Assembly (NCBI GenBank): GCA_945946765.1
Contig: CAMEWS010000002.1
Span: 1-64,000, forward strand
Direction of reading: 5' to 3'
Length of the DNA: 64,000 nt
Source: an uncultured Clostridia bacterium
GTDB taxonomy: Bacteria; Cyanobacteriota; Vampirovibrionia; Gastranaerophilales; Gastranaerophilaceae
The position numbers and the translations under genes are program-made. Under the pieces are notes generated by a model, which was not told the origin of the DNA, did no database searches, and saw only the letters and a program-made list of their open reading frames with translations. Shown here in pieces: positions 27,346 to 44,983 of the stretch. How positions within the stretch are numbered: position 1 is the stretch's first letter; each line of letters opens with the position of its first letter.

Positions 27346-27482
27346 GACAATTTAATAATGCGTCCAAGAACTCTGTTTTGAGTTGACTAAATGTCAAGTC
27401 AAATAGAGGCAAGCTAAGTGAGAAACGAAGTTTCTCCGTGCTGTATAGGGATTGCTTTATATCGAAATGACAATTTAATAAT

Positions 27483-27488
<6 letters not shown>
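27346..27488. repeat. direct repeat GACAATTTAATAATGCG(T/C)CC, copies at 27346-27365 and 27469-27488
   Basis: Read directly; second copy runs into the 5' end of tRNA-Arg. Confidence 0.85.
27359..27470 (+). repeat. left arm of an imperfect inverted repeat flanking tRNA-Arg
   Basis: GCGTCCAAGAACTCTGTT...AGAGGCAAGC..GAGAAACGAAGTTTCTC...GTGCTGTATA; matches reverse complement of 27590-27700. Confidence 0.7.
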
Positions 27489-27549
<61 letters not shown>

Positions 27550-27556
<7 letters not shown>

Positions 27557-27752
27557 TTTCTTATTTTAATAATTGTTAATTTTATGCCGTAGAGATTCGA
27601 TATTAATTATTATACGGCACACAGAAACTTCGTTTCTGATTTTGCCTGCCTCCATTCAAAATGTGTCACAGACACATTTTTAACGGAGTCCTTGGGCGCG
27701 TTTCTTATTTTATTAAAAAAACATTTTCTGCCGTCGAGATTCGATATTAATT
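27550..27752. repeat. ~60-bp imperfect direct repeat with 144-bp offset (27550-27609 and 27694-27752), first copy overlapping the 3' end of tRNA-Arg
   Basis: GGGCGCGTTTCTTATTTTA...GCCGT(A/C)GAGATTCGATATTAATT in both copies with constant 144-nt offset. Confidence 0.85.
27590..27700 (-). repeat. right arm of the inverted repeat flanking tRNA-Arg
   Basis: Reverse complement CGCGCCCAAGGACTCCGTT...GGAGGCAGGCAAAATCAGAAACGAAGTTTCTGTGTGCCGTATA. Confidence 0.7.
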
Positions 27753-27757
27753 TTATA

Positions 27758-30700
27758 TTAGTCTTGATTAGTCAACCATTCATGATTATTAAAAGTATCA
27801 AATATAAACTCTTTGTCGATATCTTTTAGGCATGAATCATATAAAGAGGAATCAGCTGATGTTGAATATAGCCGCCAATCGCTAAATTCCTGACCGCCTT
27901 TGATTTTTATTTCATTAAAGACACTTTTTTTGTTTGTAATGCTTTTTATTCCGCCGGAGCCAAATTCCTGTTTTGCCCATTTAGAAGCACTTTCATAGAA
28001 TTTGTCCATAAAATCATAAAATCTTTTAAATGCATTTTGGTTATAATGTTCAACGCAATATTGCCAACATTCATATTTAGCTTTTGGAAGGATTGCGCAC
28101 TTCATCATTTTTCCGCTGCGGGGGTGATAAAATTCAATAATTGAAACATTATCAATATCACAGAATTTAATTTTTTCTTCCAATTGTTTAATTGTATTAC
28201 TAAAAGTCTTGCTGTTGTATTTATTGTGTTGTTTTGCTTCATTTAATAATAGAGGTTTAAATGTATCAGAAATGTTGTTATAGATTTCTAATAATTCTAC
28301 AGCTTTTGGATAGTTATTGTTACCTTTATCGATTAATTTACTTTTTATAATATTTACATATTCACGATAATTTTCATCTGATTCATCATTAGTTATTTCT
28401 ATAAACCTTTGAACGCTTAATATGTATTCTCCGGCTTTTGTTTCATCAATAGAACCTTCATTTACAGAAGCAAATTTTTCAGCATATGGTAAAATTTCAT
28501 CTTGGTTGTTTTTTGCTTCCCAATAAGTTAAAATTTTTACTGCAATTTGGATATCATCATATTTGTCAATAGTGTTTAAAATATATTTTGCTTTTGATAA
28601 ACTTTCATCTTCTGTCGAATGTGGGATATATTTGTTTAAAATATTAGATAATTCTTTGTTTGATGACTGAGAAATTTCTTCTTGAATTCTTTGCTGCAAA
28701 TATTTTAAATAATCTTCCTGCTTTTGTTTTGTTTCAGCATCTTGTTGCATTAAAAGATAAAATTTATTAACTGTGTTATTGTTTAAACTATCGTTTATTG
28801 AAATAGAATTATTATTGATTTTTTCTAATAATTTAATTAAATTTACGATTAATATTTTGCTTTCATCAGTGAAATTTTGACCTAAAGCAAAATAAATAAT
28901 ATCTTCAAAAACATGTTCTTTTTCAGGGTCTAAATTTTGGGGCATTGTTTCCAGCAGTTTATTTTTTAATTCTTCTTCCGAAAAATTTTCATAATCCTTA
29001 CCTTGCGGAATTTGTGTTTGAGAAGGATGTATTTTGAATTTTAACATTATTCTGTAAACAGATGCCGTTGATATATTTAGGACTTTGCTTGCAGCATAAG
29101 GACTCATTTTATCTAATAATGCTTCAAGTTCTTTTTGCGAAATTTGTGCAATATTTTTTCTTTCTTGAATTTTACGGTTTGGAATTTTAAATTTTTTCAT
29201 TAATTTAGTGTAACTTCCGCTTGAAATATCTAACATTTCGCAAATGGTTTCTTTTTTGTAACCCTGTTCAACCAACAAACTAAGTTCTTCTTTGGTTATG
29301 GAATTAACATGTTCATTTATTGCTGTTTGAGGCGTGATAATACCGTATTTGCTTAAAAGACGTCGATACATATTTTTTGAAATATTTAGTCGCATACATA
29401 TTTCGCTGCGTGAACAATTTTTATTAATTAACTCTAAAAATTCTTCTTTTGACACATCATTAATGTCATTTTTAGAAGAATTTAAAGTTGTTGATAAATT
29501 TAGTTTATAAATCATGTTATAATAGGTATTTTCTGAAATATTAAATTCCTCTTTTATATCGGATTTAGAAAAACCTAATTTAACCATTTTAGTAAATTTT
29601 TCTTTGTCAATTGATGAGATATTAGAATGGATTTCTTTTTTCGGAGTAGTTATGGAAAATTTGTCAATAAAATTGTGTAATGATGAATAAGAAATATTCA
29701 ATTCATTTGCGATATCTTTCATTGTTTTATTTTGGGCAAGGAGCGTTTCTATTCTGCTTTTTAAAGCAAGTTCCTCTTGTGTTAATTGTTTTAGCCCCAT
29801 TTTGTACAATAAGTTTAAGTAAGTAGTTACACCAATATTTAATGCTTTGGCTTTTTCTTTTATTGTAAGGTCTGAATTTTCCAGTTCTTTTAATTGTTCG
29901 ACACTTATTTTTGCAATAATTTCTTGTTTGTTTTCTAATTCCGATTTAATTGGGAGTCCGAATTTTACAATAAGCCTGTCTATTGTTGTAACTGCTACGC
30001 CCAGTTCTTTTGCGGCAATACTTCGTGTTTTTTTTTGTTCGATTAATAAATCTTTGAGTTGTTCTTCTGTGATAGCGGCTGCACGTTCTTTTACCAGTGC
30101 AGCTTCTGTTTTAATACCATATTTATTACAAAGAGATACATATTGTTTTTCTGTAATACCAAGTTCAGCGCAAACGGCTTTGCGGCTTTTTAATCTTTCT
30201 ATTGCATCGGTTAATTGCTCTTTGGATATAGATGCTAATTTTTCTTTTGCTTCAAGGTGTTTGGTTTGAATCCCGAATTCTCTGCATTTAGCTATAAAAG
30301 TGCTGTGCGAAATACTTAAATCTTTGCAAATCTCGATAGACCCCATATTTTTATTTAGGCGGGTTGTTATATCTTCTTTTGTTATATTTCGGCATGTTTC
30401 GTTAGCGGATAATTGGGAAGTTTTTATTTCAAATTTATGCAGCAGTTTTTGATAAGTGCCGGCACTTATTTTTAAGTCTTTTTGTATTTGTGCTGCAGAC
30501 ATACCGGAATCCAATCGGGATTGTATATCTTCTTTTGTTAAAGATGCTATATATTCTTGTTTTTCTTTTTGTGACATTGTAATACTAGCAATACCAATTG
30601 ATGAAATAGCATTGCTTGCCAATTTTAACCCATTGTCATCAGTTTTTTCTGCTGTTTCTTCGGAAGGTTTAGCTTTGAAGGCGACATGATTACTGTTGGG

Positions 30701-30760
30701 AATTATATTAGGATTGTTTTTATTTAATGTATAAGGGTTAAATAAATATTTCATTAACAT
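27758..30760 (-). CDS. orphan ~1000-aa protein with about ten tandem HTH-like repeats and a unique C-terminal domain
   Basis: Repeated (I/V)(T/S)KEEL...I...LNIS..TY..L..KFGI units, ~52-aa period over residues ~73-590. Confidence 0.85.
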   Translation of the reverse strand: MLMKYLFNPYTLNKNNPNIIPNSNHVAFKAKPSEETAEKTDDNGLKLASNAISSIGIASITMSQKEKQEYIASLTKEDIQSRLDSGMSAAQIQKDLKISAGTYQKLLHKFEIKTSQLSANETCRNITKEDITTRLNKNMGSIEICKDLSISHSTFIAKCREFGIQTKHLEAKEKLASISKEQLTDAIERLKSRKAVCAELGITEKQYVSLCNKYGIKTEAALVKERAAAITEEQLKDLLIEQKKTRSIAAKELGVAVTTIDRLIVKFGLPIKSELENKQEIIAKISVEQLKELENSDLTIKEKAKALNIGVTTYLNLLYKMGLKQLTQEELALKSRIETLLAQNKTMKDIANELNISYSSLHNFIDKFSITTPKKEIHSNISSIDKEKFTKMVKLGFSKSDIKEEFNISENTYYNMIYKLNLSTTLNSSKNDINDVSKEEFLELINKNCSRSEICMRLNISKNMYRRLLSKYGIITPQTAINEHVNSITKEELSLLVEQGYKKETICEMLDISSGSYTKLMKKFKIPNRKIQERKNIAQISQKELEALLDKMSPYAASKVLNISTASVYRIMLKFKIHPSQTQIPQGKDYENFSEEELKNKLLETMPQNLDPEKEHVFEDIIYFALGQNFTDESKILIVNLIKLLEKINNNSISINDSLNNNTVNKFYLLMQQDAETKQKQEDYLKYLQQRIQEEISQSSNKELSNILNKYIPHSTEDESLSKAKYILNTIDKYDDIQIAVKILTYWEAKNNQDEILPYAEKFASVNEGSIDETKAGEYILSVQRFIEITNDESDENYREYVNIIKSKLIDKGNNNYPKAVELLEIYNNISDTFKPLLLNEAKQHNKYNSKTFSNTIKQLEEKIKFCDIDNVSIIEFYHPRSGKMMKCAILPKAKYECWQYCVEHYNQNAFKRFYDFMDKFYESASKWAKQEFGSGGIKSITNKKSVFNEIKIKGGQEFSDWRLYSTSADSSLYDSCLKDIDKEFIFDTFNNHEWLTNQD

Positions 30761-30829: not shown

Positions 30830-31114
30830 TTATGCCATAATTTTTATATTATTTTTTTTGCAATAAGCATAATAATCGTTAAATTCTTTTACAAGTTGTT
30901 CCGGTGAAACCTCTTTGCCGTCATCAACAAAAGTATCTTTTGGAAGCTCTGTTTTTGTTCCCCACGCATTTGAAACGCAAGAAGCACTGCCATCTTTGTT
31001 AAAAGTATAAGTACATTCTTCATCTCTCATATTTGGATTGTCATATTGAATTATAGTTGAGCCGTTTTGACCTTTCATAACCGTATACATAGGGTTTGTT
31101 GAAACAATTTGCAT
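30830..31114 (-). CDS. hypothetical protein, ~94 aa
   Basis: ATG at 31112-31114 with AAGGAAGG upstream; longer ORF start at 31192 less likely. Confidence 0.6.
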   Translation of the reverse strand: MQIVSTNPMYTVMKGQNGSTIIQYDNPNMRDEECTYTFNKDGSASCVSNAWGTKTELPKDTFVDDGKEVSPEQLVKEFNDYYAYCKKNNIKIMA

Positions 31115-31311: not shown

Positions 31312-32256
31312 ATGAACGATAATTATGCAAAATTTTTTGAAGCAGAACCGCAAGCATTAAAATATGGCTCTAACCCTCATCAAAAGGCTTTTTTGTATCA
31401 CAACGAAGGCAATGCCGAATTTGAAAATTTATCACAAGTAGAGCTTTCATACAACAATTTTTTGGATATAAATTGCGCAACAAAACTTGCGGCAGAGTTT
31501 TATGATGTAAATGCAGTGGTTATCGTAAAACACAATACGCCTTGCGGAGTCGCTTTGGATAAAAGTCTTAACGGCGCATATTTAAAAGCTTTTGACACAG
31601 ACCCTATTAGTACGTTCGGTGCTACGGTTGCTTTTTCAAAACCCGTAGATAAAGACATCGCAAAACACGCTAGTGCTGTGTGCCTTGATACAGTTATTGC
31701 TCCTGAGTTTGATGATGAGGCTGTTGAAATTCTTAAAAAGAATGAAAATCTTAGAATTATAAAATTAATAACGCCTTTAAAAACAATCAGAACAATGCAG
31801 GAAGAAGAAATTATCGTTACTCCTTTCGGCACGCTTGTGCAGGAAACCGATAATAAAGAGTTGGACAAAGATACTTTTAAAGTTGTGACAAAAACAAAGC
31901 CTGATGCCGAAATGATTGAGGATATGGTTTTTGCTTGGAAAATCGCAAAACACGTAAATACTAACGCTGTTGTAATAGCAAAAGATTTTAAAACACTTTC
32001 TATTGTTGGCGGACAAACAAGCAGGGTGGATTCCGTTGAAACCGCATTGAACAGAGCTTGTGACGGTGCTAAAAAAGCCGTTATTGCGTGTGACGGCTTT
32101 ATCCCGTCAGTTGATAGTATTCTTGCTGCAGCACAATGCAGAATCAGCGGTATTATTCAATCGGGTGGAAATATTAAAGAAAAAGATGTTATTGCCTGTG
32201 CAAATAAATACGAAATTGCCATGATTACAACAGGAATAAGGCATTATAAACATTAG
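31312..32256 (+). CDS. AICAR transformylase domain protein (PurH C-terminal domain only)
   Basis: LKYGSNPHQKAFLY, SYNNFLDINCA, VIVKHNTPCGVA motifs; no N-terminal IMP cyclohydrolase (MGS-like) domain. Confidence 0.9.
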   Translation: MNDNYAKFFEAEPQALKYGSNPHQKAFLYHNEGNAEFENLSQVELSYNNFLDINCATKLAAEFYDVNAVVIVKHNTPCGVALDKSLNGAYLKAFDTDPISTFGATVAFSKPVDKDIAKHASAVCLDTVIAPEFDDEAVEILKKNENLRIIKLITPLKTIRTMQEEEIIVTPFGTLVQETDNKELDKDTFKVVTKTKPDAEMIEDMVFAWKIAKHVNTNAVVIAKDFKTLSIVGGQTSRVDSVETALNRACDGAKKAVIACDGFIPSVDSILAAAQCRISGIIQSGGNIKEKDVIACANKYEIAMITTGIRHYKH

Positions 32257-33788: not shown

Positions 33789-34193
33789 ATGGCAATTCAA
33801 GCAGTTTCATTCGGTAAAACAGCAGTTACAAAAAACGGTAATGAATATCAAAGAACAAGTAAAGCAACAAAAATCGGTGCAGGCGTTGGAGCAACATGGG
33901 GTCTGCTCAGTGCAACAACAACAGCTTACAAAGCAGTTAAAAATGATATGCCTCAACAATTTAAAAACATATATTTAAATACATATAAAGCATTAAGAGA
34001 AAATAATTTTACCCGAGAAATAGCTAAAAATACAGTAAAAAGGTCTGCTAAAGCTGCAATTGCAATTGGTATTCCTATGGGTATTGCTGTGGTAACACTT
34101 ATAGGTCTTGGTATTGGTGCTGCAGTTAACAAAATTATCAATCATAAAAGAGCTGCAAAGGCTGATGCAGTTGCTAATGCAATTGTAAAATAA
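33789..34193 (+). CDS. hypothetical membrane protein with N-terminal AVSFGK motif
   Basis: ATG preceded by AAAGGA RBS; C-terminal Gly/Ala/Ile-rich hydrophobic segment. Confidence 0.65.
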   Translation: MAIQAVSFGKTAVTKNGNEYQRTSKATKIGAGVGATWGLLSATTTAYKAVKNDMPQQFKNIYLNTYKALRENNFTREIAKNTVKRSAKAAIAIGIPMGIAVVTLIGLGIGAAVNKIINHKRAAKADAVANAIVK

Positions 34194-43981: not shown

Positions 43982-44143
43982 GCTTAAAGTAATTGTTAAG
44001 TTTTGTTAAATCCTTTCCAATTTCTTTGAGAGGACTCTTTACAGGTACTTAAAAAAAATGTTACATGTTAATCGGTTAGCAATAAATTTTAAAAAAATGT
44101 TTTTATATTTTTATAAAAGTGTTTGTTAAGGAAAGGAATGTTT

Positions 44144-44983
44144 ATGACTAAAATTAACCCCAACATGCACGTTAATGTTGTTCGTGCAAATAATACTGAC
44201 AAAGCTCAAGAAACACCGCAAGCTAATGTTCCGTCTTTTGCGGGACAAGTTTCCGATTTAAACGGTGCGGATGCAATTTTGGGTGCATCACAGGTAAAAC
44301 ACGTTACTCATATTGCTCCGGGTAGTCCGATTTTAGACAAAGCTGCACCAATTATCAGCAAAGACGTCCCTGCTCAACTCAGAGTTGCATTACAAGACGG
44401 TACAGTCACTGATGTTTGGAGCGGAAGAGAAGTTCCATACTCTAAAGGCGATATTGTAATGTATTATGGCGAACAACAATTCGATTGGGGGGTAAATGCT
44501 GATGTTGCAGAAAAATGCAGAGCAGAAGGCAAAGAAACAGCCTCTGACTGGAACAGATCCGTTGACCCTGATTTAATGCGTGAAACCTATGTTGATAAAG
44601 AAACAGGTAAATATTTAAGTGAAACAGGACAACTTGAAGCGGGTAAACCTCCGGTTGATGCTATTAAAAGAGCAAAAGGCGGTTGTTTGATTATGCCTGA
44701 AGGTACAAAAGTTCATTCACTTGAAACCATTGAACACAATTTACCGCCTGTTACTGTGGCTGTAGGTCAAGTAGTGGCATTAGACCACAAAGGTAATCCT
44801 TATGTTCAAGATGTAACACAAATGCTTAAACGTAACAAACCAACAAACGATGAATCCGCTGTTTTATTTGAAAAAATGCAAGCTTTTGTAGATACTAGAA
44901 AAGAAATTCAAGCAAAATACGGTGAATCTGACCCTGAACTTGCAGAAGCAAAAATTGCCGAAGCATGGCATGAGTTGGTATAA
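44144..44983 (+). CDS. hypothetical protein, ~280 aa
   Basis: AAGGAAAGG RBS; no recognised family; N-terminal VPSFAGQV segment. Confidence 0.7.
   Translation: MTKINPNMHVNVVRANNTDKAQETPQANVPSFAGQVSDLNGADAILGASQVKHVTHIAPGSPILDKAAPIISKDVPAQLRVALQDGTVTDVWSGREVPYSKGDIVMYYGEQQFDWGVNADVAEKCRAEGKETASDWNRSVDPDLMRETYVDKETGKYLSETGQLEAGKPPVDAIKRAKGGCLIMPEGTKVHSLETIEHNLPPVTVAVGQVVALDHKGNPYVQDVTQMLKRNKPTNDESAVLFEKMQAFVDTRKEIQAKYGESDPELAEAKIAEAWHELV

Follow-up and report, generated by a model that had tools for sequence, protein, structure and literature searches.

The 64,000-nucleotide stretch of DNA analysed here, referred to as the window, encodes a 1000-aa protein in which ten helix-turn-helix (HTH) units of ~52 aa follow one another in tandem. 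This is probably a modular, sequence-specific, multi-subsite DNA-binding protein that reads a long composite site, as sequence comparison, structural modelling and analogy with known systems together suggest. Its ten HTHs, joined by short connecting helices, would be arranged along one DNA molecule like beads on a string, each reaching into the major groove with a recognition helix of its own, and the whole array would read a composite site of tens of base pairs and carry the ~400-aa C-terminal domain to this target. The line-up along a single site is drawn by analogy with Cbp1, whose three HTHs lie along the CRISPR repeat (see below).

Natural HTH proteins usually contain one to a few HTHs. 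Arrays of 7-11 HTHs in series, each with a conserved recognition helix, provide natural material for asking whether HTHs can concatenate into long DNA readers, and they bear on how linkers set the register between HTHs. Additionally, they give access to a gut lineage, for the most part uncultured, with a tagged, partly poly-G-switched protein set that, as far as searched, is apparently undescribed.

The ten-unit array, its predicted fold and its relatives

The ORF of the array protein has an ATG start and occupies exactly positions 27758-30760 of the minus strand (Table 1). Its repetition has a sharp period: when the protein is compared with itself, the mean BLOSUM62 score is +0.67 per residue at an offset of 52, against -0.84 to -0.52 at the other offsets from 40 to 69. 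The tandem units, put at about ten by an earlier reading of the sequence alone (hereafter the sequence-only reading), number ten and lie within aa 74-587, and the three sequences cited there are units 2, 8 and 9. The spans matched by the unit profile are aa 74-124, 126-177, 178-228, 230-279 and 285-331 for units 1-5 and aa 334-383, 384-434, 436-487, 488-539 and 540-587 for units 6-10, with unit length deviating slightly in units 4-6.

Table 1. Coordinates of the array protein, its parts and the upstream gene in the window, and of homopolymer tracts at short-array genes (loci named by their handles).
Feature	Position	Strand	Basis or length
Whole protein: N-terminal tag region, ten HTH units, C-terminal domain	27758..30760	-	ORF list; full-length relative G176/L055
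N-terminal region, aa 1-73	30542..30760	-	tag-type motif common to most HTH-array relatives
Tag VAFKAK, F-x-[GA]-[KR]-type, aa 26-31	30668-30685	-	same kind of motif in array and C-terminal-domain relatives
HTH unit 1, aa 74-125	30386..30541	-	unit profile, AlphaFold
HTH unit 2, aa 126-177	30230..30385	-	unit profile, AlphaFold
HTH unit 3, aa 178-229	30074..30229	-	unit profile, AlphaFold
HTH unit 4, aa 230-284, one-residue insertion between helices	29909..30073	-	unit profile, AlphaFold
HTH unit 5, aa 285-333	29762..29908	-	unit profile, AlphaFold
HTH unit 6, aa 334-383	29612..29761	-	unit profile, AlphaFold
HTH unit 7, aa 384-435	29456..29611	-	unit profile, AlphaFold
HTH unit 8, aa 436-487	29300..29455	-	unit profile, AlphaFold
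HTH unit 9, aa 488-539	29144..29299	-	unit profile, AlphaFold
HTH unit 10, aa 540-587	29000..29143	-	unit profile, AlphaFold
C-terminal domain, aa 590-1000	27761..28993	-	profile A4 search; invariant columns in last ~150 aa (A7)
94-aa gene, 69 nt upstream of the array gene	30830..31114	-	ORF list
Poly-G/C tracts in or upstream of short-array genes	L046 2020-2030; L051 5601-5613; L048 6962-6972		11-13 nt
Longer, N-interrupted poly-G/C tract, short-array gene	L050 7121-7141

The HTH nature of the units, proposed by the sequence-only reading, is borne out by the Pfam, PHROG and NCBIfam models, which are independent of these sequences, and by structure prediction. HTH families match the window protein with E-values from 1e-7 to 1e-17, among them the Pfam families HTH_23 (1.2e-17, four stretches), HTH_28 (7e-11), HTH_Tnp_1 (2e-10) and HTH_7 (9e-9), and PHROG matches to DNA-binding and HNH-associated families cover several stretches of the array. 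In line with these matches, the AlphaFold model of aa 66-592, built with 12 relatives as the alignment, shows three-helix units that each contain a helix-turn-helix and are mostly linked by connecting helices (mean pLDDT 78); its pTM of 0.27 means that the relative placement and orientation of the units are not predicted. By Pfam and AlphaFold, the units have the trihelical core of the HTH (homeodomain-like) superfamily, with the turn between helix 2 and the recognition helix. A Foldseek search with the whole array gave no significant match; many of the top 50 rows, none of them significant, are HTH proteins or DNA binders (the tandem winged helices of SelB, sigma factors, the Tc3 DNA-binding domain, Reb1 and Cbp1 2LVS), and these 50 rows include no solenoid of TPR- or HEAT-like hairpins, the fold that the sequence-only reading had named as the competing one.

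The same reading had called the protein an orphan, a description that no longer holds. A unit-profile search found HTH-array proteins in 27 of the 191 sampled genomes of the Gastranaerophilales family (11 of 41 genera), and a phylum-wide search of 386 genomes at a stricter E-value (1e-9) placed every match inside this one family. The genome of the window is assigned to this family through one member, G117, whose array protein is identical to that of 'Candidatus Gastranaerophilus phascolarctosicola'. A scan of named genomes with alignment A5 returned 12 loci, all from Gastranaerophilales/Melainabacteria MAGs or from MAGs with other or generic labels. By architecture the proteins fall into two subfamilies, with 7-11 units per array. 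Short members have ~360-500 aa and 9 or 7 units (8 in one), and the array ends the protein; in still smaller proteins (150-320 aa) the units number 3-6 and diverge further. Long members have 10-11 units followed by the ~400-aa C-terminal domain and comprise the window protein, G176 (987 aa) and G226 (at least 938 aa, at a contig end). G176, which belongs to another genus, aligns with the window protein over its full length (28.6% identity over 982 columns). No full-length match to the window gene was found in the 22 other genomes of its own genus that were searched; what matches there is the C-terminal domain or a divergent HTH protein. The window protein shares the architecture of the family, 7-11 tandem ~52-aa HTH units after an N-terminal FxG/A-K tag, and no description of such a family was found in the open-access literature (titles and abstracts of matches).

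The C-terminal region, thought unique by the sequence-only reading, recurs in ~28 other proteins. With a profile built from the three long proteins, the domain was found in 31 of the 191 family genomes, mostly in proteins of ~770-840 aa without an HTH array detectable by the unit profile, one of them elsewhere in the window's own genome (G000:C18); a further paralogue family of ~850-930 aa occurs within the genus. Helices probably make up most of the domain, which would end in a short mixed alpha/beta part, and columns of F, G, K, R, L and H are invariant in its last ~150 aa. AlphaFold, run from the single sequence, modelled it with low confidence (pLDDT 44), and Pfam and PDB profile searches of the domain gave nothing convincing. 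The pattern of the last ~110 aa might hint at a RelE/YoeB-like RNase fold; a profile-profile test of this likeness gave no support (probability below 1), but its positive control, YoeB against Gp49, likewise failed (4.8), so that the test has no power. A 733-aa ORF with a weak YoeB match was set aside, as it has no similarity to the C-terminal domain and looks amylase-like by eye.

Recognition helices and the evolution of the units

The positive surface that the sequence-only reading had expected of a DNA binder is found on the recognition helices, which are basic and poor in acidic residues: across 157 units, columns 29, 31, 33 and 34 hold almost no acidic residues, 46-68% of residues in columns 32, 35 and 36 are K or R, and the net charge of the array units is +10 to +26 per protein. 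Columns 28 and 32 may align with the base-contacting residues Ser174 and Arg178 of Hin recombinase.

Conservation of the units was compared in five 9-unit short orthologues from different species. At columns 28, 29, 31, 32 and 35, identity is 8-22% among the units of a single protein but 46-69% when the same unit is compared across species; at further variable surface positions (such as columns 8, 11, 21 and 27) it is 17-27% in these five orthologues. The contrast between the two sets of columns is marginal (p = 0.05), since unit-specificity extends to nearby helix-3 columns, to the linker and to some columns of helix 1. Individual units keep their own recognition helix: xDTYYKLLRER in unit 1, xR[TS]Y[ST]RLL in unit 5 and xxxFY[KR]LLKRL in unit 6 (5/5 orthologues each), and xxTYHEKAKxA in unit 7 (4/5). 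Such unit-to-unit variation combined with retention across species is as expected of a multi-subsite DNA reader, and these alignments suggest one. Additionally, short arrays are under purifying selection, with dN/dS of 0.08-0.19 in the five pairs that have a measurable synonymous distance. Both the selection and the recognition-helix tests cover the short subfamily; the window protein is without a close orthologue.

The order and number of units in short arrays are stable among close relatives, in which 8-9 of 9 units find their best match at the same index, and are partly kept in more distant ones (3-6 of 9). Matching units in displaced order were seen in the long subfamily only. There, none of the ten units of the window protein matches G176 at the same index, and two unit pairs between G176 and G226 (1 with 4 and 5 with 2) score 129 in reversed order. 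Since register is lost and these pairs outscore every off-index pair of the short family (maximum 127 among all 3240), the sequences make shuffling of units in long arrays likely, within a sample of three proteins.

The locus, the N-terminal tag and associated elements

The array gene is flanked by tRNA-Arg (27482-27557) on one side and a purH-like gene (31312) on the other, and the 28-30 kb interval has the lowest GC of any 2-kb bin of the window (0.267). The 94-aa gene just upstream of it was not found in the other genomes of the same genus that were searched and is possibly a co-acquired neighbour. Most sister genomes in which both flanks were recovered have tRNA-Arg close to purH with no array gene between them. 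Their tRNA-Arg is oriented opposite to that of the window relative to purH, so that no clean 'empty site' is evident and the locus is rearranged. A 59-nt repeat that includes the 3' end of the tRNA is duplicated in the window at 27550 and 27694. The site is rearrangement-prone and the array gene accessory. The tRNA-Arg region is repeat-rich both in the window (27482-27752) and in a sister genome (L131 1310-1677), where tandem ~91-nt units carry the first 23 nt of tRNA-Arg. Across most array loci there is no common neighbouring gene, shared neighbours being occasional and confined to small groups. Of bifunctional PurH, the purH-like ORF (31312-32256) encodes just the C-terminal ~300 aa, scoring 318 bits where the cut-off is 402; the open frame has ~510 aa in some species of the genus and ~320 aa in others, so that some of them may have a split or shorter gene.

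Most array proteins carry, within about their first 30-50 residues, a tag of the form [STNV]-F-x-[GAS]-[KR] (VAFKAK in the window protein; YPTFRGK, PPSFQGK, SPSFTGK and PVNFQGK in others), and many relatives of the C-terminal domain carry similar ones (ISFKAK, ISFAGK, VYFTGK). Judged by its recurrence at N-termini, the tag may be a sorting signal. Put more broadly as ~[STNPV]-F-x-[GA]-[KR] at residues ~10-60, the motif is found in this lineage on many proteins with no other kinship, from the HTH arrays and the C-terminal-domain family to CheR-like, GNAT and HNH proteins (N-termini of L102-L128; L063, L131 and L134-L138), and elsewhere in the window (VPSFAGQ at 44123-44983, AVSFGK at 33789-34193).

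About 35-70 nt before the start of several array genes (L049, L050, L054, L056, L059, L060 and L063) lies an element of the form ~TAGCAAA-(A/T)n-TT-N4-10-TTT, which from its sequence and position is possibly a shared promoter or operator; the window array gene has no strict copy of it. The element also precedes other tagged genes at that distance, and further copies lie at 44077(+) in the window and at L134 8076, L137 3092(-) and L055 4975(-). Among non-array families, the relaxed tag is present in 7/10 with the element versus 153/504 (30%) without it (p = 0.012; p = 0.026 with a stricter tag), an association that is a lead and not proof, the element having been read off array genes, the regexes chosen after examples were seen, and the base rate of the relaxed tag being near 30%.

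In two short-array genes, poly-G tracts close to the N-terminus (13 and 11 nt) place tag and array in different frames while the arrays are intact; a run of 11 C in a third gene is in frame. The frame-changing runs resemble phase variation, to judge from the reading frames; homopolymer assembly error is also possible. A 400-kb stretch of the genome of Ca. Gastranaerophilus phascolarctosicola (G117 contig C1 1-400000, L067-L086) gave 27 poly-G/C tract matches, a few of which are halves of one N-interrupted tract. Many of these tracts lie where prepilin-like genes begin, directly ahead of an FTMAEILL-like segment, and this species possibly has many phase-variable pilins.

Readings of the array and known systems

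Trihelical HTH-like folds can bind protein or RNA, and unit-specificity is as marked in linker and helix-1 columns as it is in parts of helix 3, as might be the case if the units formed a scaffold or protein-protein interaction array, or bound RNA, and read no DNA sequence. Such a role is unlikely, given that the helix-3 face is basic and acid-poor, with exposed positions kept between orthologues, and that the matches are to DNA-binding HTH families. It is quite unlikely, too, that the protein is an exported effector acting on DNA elsewhere, TALE-like in role and not in fold, with tag, upstream element and poly-G switches marking a co-regulated delivered set. Delivery would account for the tag found on the majority of array proteins and on many proteins with the C-terminal domain, for its likes on CheR-type, GNAT and HNH proteins, and for the element before several array genes and its association with the tag in other families; however, no secretion machinery was linked to the tag, which is short, loosely defined and frequent under the relaxed regex, and the window gene lacks a strict copy of the element.

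PHROG matches, among them phage DNA-binding proteins and HTH-bearing HNH endonucleases (phrog_8446, 8e-18), absence of the gene from sister genomes, the adjoining rearranged tRNA-Arg locus and low GC are all features that a mobile-element protein would show, be it a homing endonuclease or a transposase-associated HTH array. This origin is nevertheless very improbable, as the families listed for the window protein include no HNH domain and no nuclease or integrase catalytic domain, and phage, plasmid and viral-contig collections hold no match to the HTH-array proteins. A Cbp1-like protein that coats CRISPR repeats is very improbable as well. The NCBIfam model HTH_Cbp1 matches 6/6 short arrays scanned and is the best NCBIfam match of one of them (L050; 3.7e-23, 82 bits), and it matches the window protein as well (37.5 bits, 2e-9), but these scores stay below the family cut-off of 140 bits. 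Cbp1 goes with CRISPR-Cas, and a CRISPR role for the window protein is unlikely because just 2 of 12 genomes with arrays gave a Cas1 match and that of the window (80% complete) gave none.

The preferred reading, a multi-subsite DNA reader, can be tentatively extended. Each 52-aa unit might read its own subsite, the long subfamily might gain specificity by reordering or swapping units, which would make its arrays possibly re-programmable, and the array with its fused C-terminal domain might belong to a co-regulated tagged set.

Several known systems share parts of this design. TALE repeats have 33-35 aa and two helices and read one base through two residues. TAL effectors and TALE-likes resemble the window protein as long arrays of alpha-helical DNA-reading repeats, an analogy in working only, since the units here are trihelical HTHs with a period of 52. 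Of the modular DNA reader loosely likened to TALE arrays by the sequence-only reading, the HTH units and their basic, unit-specific yet retained recognition helices are supported, whereas TALE-type repeats are absent; a code of one module per subsite and TALE-like programmability would be conjecture. Myb/SANT repeats read composite DNA sites, usually with 2-4 repeats per array; they too are ~52-aa HTH repeats in tandem, but their three regularly spaced tryptophans have no counterpart here, the unit alignment containing no Trp column, and the arrays here have 7-11 units. In phages, DNA-binding proteins and HNH nucleases with HTHs (PHROG 8446, 14131 and 9129) match several stretches of the array through those HTHs; the window protein has no HNH. 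The strongest PDB profile match, the 'CAP Repeat' (PDB 8VD6), which reportedly appears in a protein-design paper, is also a repeated HTH-like sequence, but its repeats are near-identical and ~33 residues long, and it is not a natural DNA reader. The closest known natural protein is the archaeal Cbp1 of Sulfolobales (NF040595; 2LVS), of which the window protein is not a member: Cbp1 has three HTHs where the bacterial arrays have 7-11. Both consist of tandem HTH domains that arose by duplication, and those of Cbp1 line up 5'->3' along the CRISPR repeat (PMC10883916), as the units of the window protein would along their own composite DNA site.
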